Made by a program: the position numbers and the translations under genes. A stretch of 64,000 nucleotides of DNA from the NCBI GenBank assembly GCA_016207095.1, contig JACQQF010000027.1:62001-126000 (forward strand). The letters are read 5' to 3'. Positions 25,421 through 54,718 of this stretch are shown here, in pieces (within the stretch, counting starts at the first letter, position 1; every line of letters begins with the position of its first letter). The notes beneath the pieces are model-generated. The model was not told the DNA's origin, searched no databases, and saw only the letters and a program-made list of their open reading frames with translations. The DNA comes from Candidatus Methylomirabilota bacterium (GTDB lineage: Bacteria; Methylomirabilota; Methylomirabilia; Methylomirabilales; Methylomirabilaceae).

Positions 25421-26221
25421 TCAGATCTCACGGATGAACTTCCGGATGGCGGCATTGACCCGCTGGGGCGACTCAAGGGTCACCATATGGCCGGCTTTCT
25501 CGATCACTTCCAGCGTTGATCCAGGCATCTCCTTGTGCAGTCGCTTTGAGTGGCGCACCGGCGTGATCAGGTCCTCATCGCCGCAAAGGATGAGGGTCGG
25601 CAGACTGAGCCCTTTGAGGCGCCCCCTGAAGTCGTACGTCCGGCAGGCGGCGAAATCGCCCAAGACCGTCTCCAGGCTGCACCGTCGCACATCGCCCCTC
25701 GCGATGGCCAGCGCCTCCCCTGTGACCTGAGACGAGAAGAACATCCCCTTGAACTTGTGAGGCATCACGGCAACGGCCCACAGGAGGATGTCGGGGGTCA
25801 GCGCCAGCGCGTCGAGGTAGGCCGAGGTCCCAACGAGGATCAAGCCCTTCAGCAGCTCCGGATAGGCCAAGGCCACCTGGAGCGCGACAGCACCACCCAT
25901 CGAGTGTCCCGCCAGAAACACCCTGCGTCTTCCACTTCGCTGAATCACCCTCCTCACCGTCGCAGCGTATCCCTCGATGGAAGGTTCACCCGCCGGATCG
26001 GACCCACCGCGGCCCGGAAGATCTGGGGCCACCATCTCATACTCGCGAGAAAGCCCATCTACCTGATACCGCCAGGAATCGGCGCTGCAGCCGCTGCCGT
26101 GGACCAGGACAAGCCGCTCCCGTCGAAGCGGCCACCGCTTGCCGGCTATCACGCAGGCCACGGTCAGGCCATCGATCCTGAGAGGTTGTCGTTTAAGCGG
26201 TCTAAGAGGTTGGATGGGCAT
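25421..26221 (-). CDS. Alpha/beta hydrolase
   Basis: A 266-residue serine hydrolase. The oxyanion loop is VLVHGSGCSADSWRYQ, the nucleophile elbow AGHSMGG near residue 113, the acid in GDEDLITPV and the histidine in KAGHMVTLE. The cap is helical. It resembles esterases and BphD/haloperoxidase-like enzymes, without enough signal to name the substrate. There is no signal peptide, so it is cytosolic. It stands alone, convergent with the MFS gene. About 200 nt upstream of it (26222-26428) hold nothing that I can identify. Confidence 0.88.
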   Translation of the reverse strand: MPIQPLRPLKRQPLRIDGLTVACVIAGKRWPLRRERLVLVHGSGCSADSWRYQVDGLSREYEMVAPDLPGRGGSDPAGEPSIEGYAATVRRVIQRSGRRRVFLAGHSMGGAVALQVALAYPELLKGLILVGTSAYLDALALTPDILLWAVAVMPHKFKGMFFSSQVTGEALAIARGDVRRCSLETVLGDFAACRTYDFRGRLKGLSLPTLILCGDEDLITPVRHSKRLHKEMPGSTLEVIEKAGHMVTLESPQRVNAAIRKFIREI

Positions 26222-26428: not shown

Positions 26429-26662
26429 TTACGATGCGAGCGCCTCCGCCAGACGGTCCTGGTCGAATCCAACAATTCGCTGTCCGTCAATCACGGTGAC
26501 AGGAACGCTGTTGAACCCCATCCGCTTCAACTCGTCCAGCGCGACCTGATCCTCGCGAACGTTCTTTTCGGTGAAGGGGATCTGTCGTTGTGAAAGCCAC
26601 GCTTTCACCTGGTAGCAGGACCCTCACCCGGTAGCACTGTAGACAATTACTTCCTTCAACAT
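26429..26662 (-). CDS. Glutaredoxin/NrdH-like selenoprotein (Sec13, UGSC motif)
   Basis: This gene is invisible to standard ORF calling. On the minus strand, ATG 26662 follows a GGAGGGAACAG ribosome site and the frame is open to TAA 26429 if TGA 26624-26626 is read as Sec: MLKEVIVYSATG-Sec-GSCYQVKAWL. The 77-residue product is a complete glutaredoxin fold: active-site U-G-S-C at the first helix, the cis-Pro loop SVPVTVIDG and the GSH/partner motif VGFDQDRL. The TGA lies on the N-terminal active-site Cys. A perfect 8-bp hairpin follows the TGA. The likely role is a cytosolic thiol/selenol reductant. It lies upstream of the hydrolase gene and downstream of a zinc-finger gene on the same strand. 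Confidence 0.9.
26590..26608 (-). promoter_or_regulatory. Bacterial SECIS hairpin of the Grx-like selenoprotein
   Basis: On the minus strand GTGAAAGC-GTG-GCTTTCAC forms a perfect 8-bp stem with a three-base loop whose first base is G. The stem begins 15 nt and the loop 23 nt after the Sec TGA, inside the range for bacterial SECIS elements. Confidence 0.8.
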
Positions 26663-26742
26663 CTGTTCCCTCCGTGGTCGAACACGCTAGGAGATACACG
26701 CGAGTCTACGGGGCGCGATGGGCAAAGTCAAGCGAACTGTGG

Positions 26743-26928
26743 TCAAGGGACGAACCCTTCTTCGCTCTCCTGCTTGACTGTTTGACGAATCTCCCGACCC
26801 TTGCGAAGATAACAGGCGCGACAGACATTCCGGACGATATCCGACGTCGGCCCCTCGGCGAGGAGATAGGTTTCCAAGGGCTTGGTCGCCTTGCCACAGA
26901 TCACGCAGTGACGAAGAGTCTCCTTCAT
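26743..26928 (-). CDS. Small zinc-finger protein, 61 aa
   Basis: MKETLRHCVICGKATKPLETYLLAEG... carries two Cys pairs, CVIC (8-11) and CRAC (36-39), with the spacing of a treble-clef or zinc-ribbon knuckle. GGAAGGGGTA lies directly before the ATG. The basic C-terminal half (YLRKGREIRQTVKQ) suggests nucleic-acid or protein binding. The family is unknown. It precedes the Grx selenoprotein by 80 nt on the same strand and may be co-transcribed. The 26929-27164 gap upstream holds no gene that I can support. Confidence 0.65.
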   Translation of the reverse strand: MKETLRHCVICGKATKPLETYLLAEGPTSDIVRNVCRACYLRKGREIRQTVKQESEEGFVP

Positions 26929-46292: not shown

Positions 46293-46686
46293 CCCTCCGT
46301 TGCCTCCTCCATCTCAAGCCCTATGCACCAAGCCCACTCTTCTCATAGACCAAATCAAGATTGGCCCCGATGGGCGTTCTACGGGCTCGTCATGCATACC
46401 TTGGATTGTGCGAACGTATCATACTGTTCGGATCGGTCACTGCCAAGCATTTTTTCCGACCCTCGCCAACCTGGAGAGCGACATTGATCTTGCCCAGACG
46501 CAGACCCCCGCTCACAAGAACCGTACTTGAAACTTGAATGGGGTAGCGTTCGAGGCCAAAAACGGATATGCTGGCTGTGTAATTGTGCTCCGGTGAGCAA
46601 CAAACCCCGAAAAAGCCTGTTTCGGCAATGGCCGGCAGGCCTGAGTCCCGGAACCGGGCCCGGCTCGTGTCCGGTCGGAGGGAGAG
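46293..46686. other. Intergenic, divergent promoter region
   Basis: About 390 nt between the methionine operon and the OsmC selenoprotein. No ORF is credible. A small dyad CCCGG-AA-CCGGG lies about 35 nt before the OsmC start. I see no riboswitch that I can name. Confidence 0.45.
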
Positions 46687-47085
46687 ATGAAAATCGAGAC
46701 CGTTGTACGATCGATCGGTGGCCTGCAACAAGAGATCGTCATCGGCCCCCACCGATTGGTGGCCGACGAGCCGCCGGAGAATGGAGGACAGGATGCCGGG
46801 CCCAGTCCGTTCGGCCTGCTCACGGCGGCCTTGGGCGCCTGAACGGCTATCACACTGCGCATGTATGCGCAGCGGAAAGGATGGCCACTGAAGGACGTCA
46901 ATGTGAAGGTGCGCTACGAGCCCGGACCTTCGGGGCTTTCCGGCAGTGAAGGACACCGGATCGTGCAGTCGGTCACATTGATCGGTGACCTGACCAGCGA
47001 ACAGCGCAGTCGCTTAGAAAGCATCATCGAGCGATGTCCGACTCACAGAACGCTTTCAGCAGGGATACCGATTGTAGCTGCATAG
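46687..47085 (+). CDS. OsmC-family peroxiredoxin-like selenoprotein (Sec52)
   Basis: With TGA 46840-46842 read as Sec, ATG 46687 to TAG 47085 encodes 132 residues: [20 protein letters not shown]...[12 protein letters not shown][13 protein letters not shown]...[13 protein letters not shown]. OsmC/YhfA proteins have ALGACTAMT here, so the stop codon sits exactly on the peroxidatic Cys. The resolving Cys (ERCPTHRTL, residue 117) is kept. GGAGGGAGAG precedes the ATG. A SECIS-like hairpin follows the TGA. The enzyme would reduce organic hydroperoxides in the cytosol with a selenol nucleophile. ORF callers start at an internal ATG (46861) and miss the active site. Confidence 0.9.
46855..46872 (+). 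promoter_or_regulatory. Bacterial SECIS hairpin of the OsmC-like selenoprotein
   Basis: CTGCGCA-TGTA-TGCGCAG: a perfect 7-bp stem with a tetraloop whose second base is G. The loop starts 20 nt after the Sec TGA. It overlaps the coding sequence as bacterial SECIS elements do. Confidence 0.8.
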
Positions 47086-53260: not shown

Positions 53261-54718
53261 CTACGGCGCTGCAACCGAGGCAACCACTTTGGCCAATTCC
53301 TCCAGCTCCTCCTCCAGCACGGTGCGGGGGTCGAGGAGGACTTGGCCGTCTTTAATCCGGACCATGACCGGTGGGTCGGTTCGTCGCAGCCGCTCTTCAA
53401 TGACCTGGGAGGTCAGGTGGGCCGCCCGCACCGCAACGAGGCGCGTCGGAATCGCCTCGAGCGGCAGCGCCCCGCCGCCAACCTCCGACGTCCCACTGAT
53501 CACCGACACCTCGAGATGACCGGAGGCGAGTGTCGCGATTTGACCGCAGAGCCGGCTGGCCCGTCGATCGACCTCCCGGAGCGGCATGGCCAGCGCCCGG
53601 AGCACCGGGATATCTGAAAAGGCCCGCCCCTCGTCAAGGCAGAGGCGGAGGGTGGCCTCCAGCGCGGCCAGCGTCAGCTTGTCGATCCGCACGGCCCGGG
53701 CCAGCGGATTGAGGCGAAGCCTCTCGACCAGCGACCGCTTGCCAACGATCAAGCCCGCTTGCGGCCCTCCAAGCAGCTTGTCCCCGCTGAAGGTCACAAG
53801 CTCCGCGCCGGCGCGGACGCTCTCTGAAGGCAGCGGCTCCTTCGGTAGCCCGATCTGCGTGAGATCCAAGAGGGCACCGCTCCCCACATCTTCCACGACC
53901 GGCAGACCGCGTTGCTGGCCCAGCGCGGCGAGCTCGCTCACGGGGACCTCTGCGGCGAAGCCCAGAATCCGGAAGTTGCTGGTGTGAACCTTCAGGAGCA
54001 TGGCGGTCGCCCCACCGATGGCCGCCTCGTAGTCCCTGAGGTAGGTCCGGTTCGTCGTCCCGACTTCCTTCAGGATCCCGCCGGCCCGACGCATGATGTC
54101 TGGAATCCGGAACGAATCCCCGATCTCCACCAGCTCCCCGCGAGAGACGATGACCTCCTTCCCCTCAGCCAGCGTGTTGATGGCCAGCAGCACCGCCGCC
54201 GCGTTGTTGTTCACCGCGAGCGCAGCCTCGGCGCCAGTCAGCCGACACAGGAGCCATTCCACATGGGCTTGCCTGGAGCGCCGAGTGCCACGCTCAAGGT
54301 CGTACTCCAGGTTGGAGTAGCCCCGCGCCACCTCGACGACGCGCTCGATGGCGGCCTCCGGTAGCGGGGCACGACCCAGGTTGGTGTGCACGATGACCCC
54401 GGTTGCGTTGATCAGCCGTCGCAGGGCCGGTCGATCCCGGCGCCGCGCGGCCTCCCGCGCCTCGGCGATCAGAGCAGCCCTGGGTGGTGGATCGGTCTGG
54501 GATGATCCGGACGGCCCGGCGGCCACAATTCGCCGCCACCGATCCAATACCTCCCGAACCGCCTCAACCACCGCCCAGCGCGGGACGCTCTCCATCAACC
54601 CCCGGATCGATGGCTCCTGCAACAACTCGTCCACCGAAGGGAGCTGCCTGAGCAGCAATCGGGCTCGGCTATCCAAGGAATCCATCTCCCCCATCGGCCC
54701 TCGAGAGCCGGAATCCAT
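53261..54718 (-). CDS. selA: L-seryl-tRNA(Sec) selenium transferase SelA
   Basis: A PLP enzyme converting Ser-tRNA(Sec) to Sec-tRNA(Sec) with selenophosphate. 485 residues. RQLPSVDELLQEP opens the N-terminal domain, then INATGVIVHTNLGRAPLPEA, NLEYDLERGTRRSRQAHVEW, VNNNAAAVLLAINTLAEGKE, VSRGELVEIGDSFRIPDIM and the PLP lysine in FSGDKLLGGPQAGLIVG. These are diagnostic of SelA. The start may be ATG 54718 or 54685. No selB, selD or tRNA-Sec gene is visible in the window. Its presence supports reading the three in-frame TGA codons in this window as Sec. Confidence 0.96.
   Translation of the reverse strand: MDSGSRGPMGEMDSLDSRARLLLRQLPSVDELLQEPSIRGLMESVPRWAVVEAVREVLDRWRRIVAAGPSGSSQTDPPPRAALIAEAREAARRRDRPALRRLINATGVIVHTNLGRAPLPEAAIERVVEVARGYSNLEYDLERGTRRSRQAHVEWLLCRLTGAEAALAVNNNAAAVLLAINTLAEGKEVIVSRGELVEIGDSFRIPDIMRRAGGILKEVGTTNRTYLRDYEAAIGGATAMLLKVHTSNFRILGFAAEVPVSELAALGQQRGLPVVEDVGSGALLDLTQIGLPKEPLPSESVRAGAELVTFSGDKLLGGPQAGLIVGKRSLVERLRLNPLARAVRIDKLTLAALEATLRLCLDEGRAFSDIPVLRALAMPLREVDRRASRLCGQIATLASGHLEVSVISGTSEVGGGALPLEAIPTRLVAVRAAHLTSQVIEERLRRTDPPVMVRIKDGQVLLDPRTVLEEELEELAKVVASVAAP

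Follow-up and report, generated by a model that had tools for sequence, protein, structure and literature searches.

The window, i.e. the whole 64,000-nucleotide stretch of DNA analysed, originates from a genome of the genus Methylomirabilis (NC10/Methylomirabilota), and its nearest public loci belong to Methylomirabilis/Methylomirabilota genomes from groundwater. On the minus strand, the frame 26662-26429 comprises 77 codons with an ATG start, a TAA stop and a single in-frame TGA (26626-26624), and translates as MLKEVIVYSATGUGSCYQVKAWLSQ...LAEALAS* when this TGA is read as selenocysteine (Sec, U). The read-through protein matches the Pfam Glutaredoxin family (PF00462; E = 9.4e-14, 51.8 bits against a gathering score of 22.9); in this alignment the TGA falls on the first active-site Cys while the second Cys is retained, giving the motif U-G-S-C, and it likewise stands opposite the first Cys of the redox motif CPHC in the structure 7c10. 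Frame and Pfam match thus agree with the earlier note, according to which a 77-residue glutaredoxin with Sec at the first and Cys at the second active-site position appears only if the TGA is read through. That note named no strand; all the details it gave, including the strong ribosome-binding site, hold on the minus strand, and a plus-strand reading of 26429-26662 was rejected, since the frame is meaningless there and gives no protein. As had also been claimed, the standard list of open reading frames (ORFs) of the window contains none covering 26662-26429 on the minus strand: ordinary gene-finders miss the gene because its internal stop codon is read as Sec. All features of the locus, together with a selenium transferase gene of the same contig, are listed in Table 1.

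Table 1. Coordinates of the features within the window, with the basis of each assignment
Feature	Position	Strand	Basis or remark
Alpha/beta hydrolase, downstream neighbour	25421..26221	-	Syntenic in two orthologous loci
Sec-glutaredoxin gene	26429..26662	-	Frame, Pfam match, orthologue dN/dS 0.055-0.13
Bacterial SECIS: 8 bp stem closed by GUG (26600-26598), with 23 nt from UGA to loop	26590..26608	-	bSECIS model, energy, covariation
Sec codon TGA, encoding residue 13 at the start of UGSC	26624..26626	-	Conserved in all members spanning the TGA
Shine-Dalgarno GGAGG, 6 nt before ATG	26669..26673	-	Sequence
Sigma-70-like promoter TTGACT-17-TAGACT	26703..26731	-	Hexamers and spacing same in G003 orthologue (L023)
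Zinc-ribbon-like protein of 61 aa (two CxxC motifs), upstream neighbour	26743..26928	-	Syntenic in two orthologous loci
selA, L-seryl-tRNA(Sec) selenium transferase	53282..54652	-	Within window, same contig as glutaredoxin

The 61-aa CxxC protein has no Pfam or NCBIfam match and is present upstream of the glutaredoxin in three species, while the downstream hydrolase gene itself ends in TGA, which is therefore also an ordinary stop in the source genome. Among the genes directly adjoining the glutaredoxin, none was noted as encoding a ribonucleotide reductase, and no substrate or reductase gene is linked to it at this locus. Elsewhere in the window, an OsmC-like ORF (46645-47082, plus strand; Pfam OsmC, 2.5e-16) becomes continuous only by read-through of a TGA (46840-46842) at the position where the catalytic Cys normally stands; OsmC-like proteins are a listed Sec family. 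When codon bias was used to look for other genes interrupted by TGA, mainly ordinary gene ends or antisense frames came up, and the scan proved a poor detector, as it placed the glutaredoxin only 61st.

The tBLASTn comparison of the read-through sequence, proposed in the earlier note, recovered two orthologues in other species, with 91 and 84% identity, both of which keep the TGA. Within the genus, three separate assemblies have the same TGA, and the TGA, the frame and the hairpin are all conserved among relatives. Between the window gene and its nearer orthologue (L023), differences are distributed as 3/3/26 over codon positions 1/2/3; dN/dS is about 0.06 between the window gene and its orthologues and ranges from 0.055 to 0.13 across three pairs, with 0.065-0.115 for the portion downstream of the TGA. 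Beyond the genus, relatives, whose absence would have spoken against a selenoprotein, were found by profile search in 80 of the 95 genomes of the phylum. That search yielded 117 matches above 50 bits, 114 of them with an in-frame TGA and the other three starting downstream of the Sec codon; a Cys form of the family was not seen among these 117 matches from the 95 genomes. Wherever the DNA of a member was read out, UxxC begins with the TGA, except in a frameshifted copy (L072), and the Cys-containing glutaredoxins of the phylum (e.g. L115, with STSWCGYC) form a distant group. Two loci (L102 and L073) carry adjacent divergent tandem pairs of Sec-glutaredoxins, UMFC with UGDC and UMFC with UPYC, respectively, each gene with a hairpin of its own. 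Decay of a glutaredoxin gene through mutation of a Cys codon to TGA, or a sequencing error to the same effect, would be in keeping with the single base that separates Cys codons from TGA and with the failure of standard ORF callers to see a gene. Yet the recurrence of the same TGA in separate assemblies and in nearly all matches of the phylum, the strong purifying selection that persists downstream of it and the covariation of the SECIS described below leave this explanation a very small probability, and both pseudogene and assembly error were rejected on the grounds of selection and conservation. The Sec-glutaredoxin is genuine, ancient and common to most Methylomirabilota.

The stem-loop that the earlier note had placed 15 nt after the TGA was recovered exactly as described, with a perfect stem of 8 bp (GUGAAAGC/GCUUUCAC) closed by a GUG loop. 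Its energy of -8.6 kcal/mol was equalled by none of 200 shuffles, a stem of this length arises in only about 1.3% of cases when the protein is re-encoded synonymously, and the hairpin follows all four published rules for bacterial SECIS elements (PMC13188914). In the two orthologues the stem is slightly imperfect (6 bp and a bulge), with an energy equal to that of the window hairpin. Family stems average 8.1 pairs, against 5.5 under random synonymous re-encoding, and, when 24 distinct sequences are compared with the loop held at 23 nt downstream of the UGA, 95.8% of cells are paired. Double changes in the same set affect six of the eight stem pairs, with a covariation score of 0.388, whereas shuffling gives 0.144 and sliding no more than 0.111; such counts overstate the number of events because the relatives are not independent, although the changes occur in several branches. 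RNAalifold recovered the same helix unaided. The clearest sign of a SECIS is covariation at synonymous sites, namely at the wobble base of a conserved serine codon, which tracks its pairing partner: GAG accompanies TCT in 29 of 29 cases and GTG accompanies TCA in three of five, and GCG or ACG pairs with TCG in every case where Ser is retained. Given the fixed distance from the UGA, the covariation at six of eight pairs and the serine wobble base that follows its partner, the hairpin is a bacterial SECIS.

The source genome encodes SelA, SelB, SelD and tRNA-Sec, and hence a complete Sec apparatus. The tRNA-Sec, with anticodon UCA (TCA in DNA), lies on the window's own contig, as does selA; SelB scores over its curated cut-off, and the selD gene itself carries an in-frame TGA. 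Both selA and selD are found in all 15 genomes of the genus. A conserved frame alone does not identify the inserted residue, which could in principle be Trp or another amino acid supplied by near-cognate read-through. This reading is very unlikely, considering that the genome otherwise uses TGA as a normal stop, for instance at the end of the adjoining gene, that the position is that of the catalytic Cys of glutaredoxins, that a SECIS of correct geometry follows and that the whole Sec apparatus is encoded. Together with this apparatus, conservation, purifying selection and the covariation of the SECIS strongly support the selenoprotein with a UGSC motif proposed in the earlier note.

In the NCBIfam scan the protein remains below every curated cut-off. 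It scores 66.9 bits with TIGR02196 (YruB; cut-off 88.55), 58.8 bits with TIGR02194 (NrdH; cut-off 85.75) and 45.7 bits with NF041212 (UXX-star; cut-off 66), while a relative from another branch (L107) reaches 93.5 bits with TIGR02196. The best solved relative by sequence is cGrx1 (7c10/7c12), at 67.7 bits, whereas NrdH chains do not exceed 25 bits, and cGrx1 is also the top PDB fold match of the AlphaFold model (pLDDT 89.5), which has a glutaredoxin fold. The designation "glutaredoxin/NrdH-like" in the earlier note therefore stands in its first half, carried by the Pfam match and by the closeness of cGrx1 in both sequence and fold, and falls in its second: the match to NrdH is weaker, membership of that family was rejected, and the protein is nearer to the YruB/cGrx1 type.

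Overall, the gene very probably encodes a YruB/cGrx1-type Sec-glutaredoxin, in which UGA codon 13 is translated as Sec by means of the hairpin and which, by analogy, acts as a thiol-disulfide oxidoreductase. Reading frame, conservation, SECIS, machinery and predicted fold are computed results; catalysis, substrate and reductant are inferences. SelB and tRNA-Sec would decode the UGA under the guidance of the hairpin immediately 3' of it, and the product is predicted by modelling to take the glutaredoxin/thioredoxin fold. As suggested by the comparison with cGrx1, it may function as a thiol-disulfide oxidoreductase in which Sec13, as selenolate, attacks a disulfide or an oxidised partner and Cys16 presumably resolves the mixed intermediate. 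Glutathione is probably not the reductant, because neither family of gamma-glutamylcysteine ligase (GCS2, Glu_cys_ligase) has a match in the 95% complete source genome. The sole GSH-S_ATP match corresponds to a different type of ATP-grasp protein, 289 aa long, and no gshA-type gene was found, which speaks against glutathione dependence. A thioredoxin-reductase-like or related flavoprotein would be the more likely electron donor, the flavoprotein at G000:C41:33290-34204 being a candidate; the best thioredoxin-reductase-like match in the genome falls below the TIGR01292 cut-off.

Many members of the family have a different genomic setting. A mer-type neighbour (MerT, MerF or MerB/SaoL-like) accompanies 24 of 56 members, two of them in the source genome, and the typical order, with all genes in one direction, is ArsR - MerB/SaoL-like - MerF - Grx(U) - MerT-like. 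Both source-genome paralogues lie in mer-type clusters: one, with UGAC (L077, 5720-6970 in G000:C48), is preceded by ArsR, MerB/SaoL-like and MerF genes and followed by a MerT-like gene, with a flavoprotein disulfide reductase nearby; the other, with UAGC (L078, in G000:C9), has the same three genes upstream, and the sequence ends before its downstream side. From these neighbours it might be supposed that the window copy is itself a specific handler of mercury or organometals, whose selenolate binds or transfers Hg(II), instead of a general disulfide reductase. We consider this rather unlikely: a mer context was looked for and not found at the window locus and its two syntenic orthologues, which adjoin the CxxC protein and the hydrolase instead, the distant relatives in G030 and G032 have no mer neighbour in their available flanks, and the branch of the window copy (G000, G003, G008, G030 and G032) is separate from the rest of a tree whose deep forks are weak because its alignment has only 78 columns. 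The window copy is thus a stand-alone branch of a phylum-wide family, other branches of which include paralogues in mercury-resistance-type operons. Tentatively, this Sec-only family may have radiated along with metal resistance, the glutaredoxins of mer operons taking up Hg(II) or organomercury or reducing MerT-type transporters, and the window copy being a housekeeping offshoot. In such operons the affinity of selenium for mercury would allow MerB/SaoL-like lyases to pass Hg(II) or organomercury on to the protein; alternatively, it would hold MerT-type transporters in the reduced state.

These results correct the annotation of a gene missed by ordinary ORF calling in most genomes of the phylum, which comprises methane oxidisers and groundwater bacteria. 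They also provide a SECIS family, very well supported and covarying at wobble positions, on which SECIS finders could be trained, and the mer-operon paralogues suggest a role of selenium in the handling of mercury that can be tested. A literature search of limited coverage found no paper on Sec-glutaredoxins in mer operons.

Among known systems, the mer operons and the Sao system (MerB-like SaoL, NF040728) include genes of the kind among which the paralogues sit, with the window copy outside them; the SaoT model was not among the NCBIfam matches of the glutaredoxin proteins. NrdH redoxins (TIGR02194; PDB 1r7h, 4fiw, 1h75) are small redoxins of a fold similar to that of the window protein. The UXX-star selenoproteins (NF041212, NF041114, NF041211) have a related glutaredoxin fold, but the window protein differs from them in having UxxC and in lacking a C-terminal Sec, as its chain ends in LAEALAS-stop. 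Four UXX-star-like genes of the same genus (L016, L017, L020 and L021) have two in-frame TGAs, one in the active site (U-P-Y-T) and one near the C-terminus (U-x-x-stop). The closest counterpart, cGrx1 of Clostridium (Alkaliphilus) oremlandii, is a natural selenoprotein, the structures of which (PDB 7c10, 7c12, 7c13) were solved with Cys replacing Sec (PMC7642778). Like the window protein, it carries Sec at the start of the active-site motif and Cys three residues later, and the two share 47% identity over 75 residues; it differs in its active site (U(C)PHC versus UGSC) and in the phylum of its host, and its partner, cMsrA, was proposed from experiment. Sec-glutaredoxins with UxxC (Grx, PF00462) have been catalogued since 2006, then as three sequences (PMC1794560), and appear again in a catalogue of 2026 (PMC13188914), which also mentions 63 predicted selenoproteins for one genome of Methylomirabilota; the catalogues assign them to few species. 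In view of cGrx1 and of these catalogued UxxC proteins, the window protein is a further member of an already known class, sharing with the catalogued sequences the Pfam family, the Sec position and the kind of bacterial SECIS. Unlike those few species, Methylomirabilota have the family in most of the genomes searched, often in several copies and with no Cys form seen, and it is this phylum-wide, Sec-only distribution, together with the paralogues in mer-type operons, that is the less expected part of the picture.
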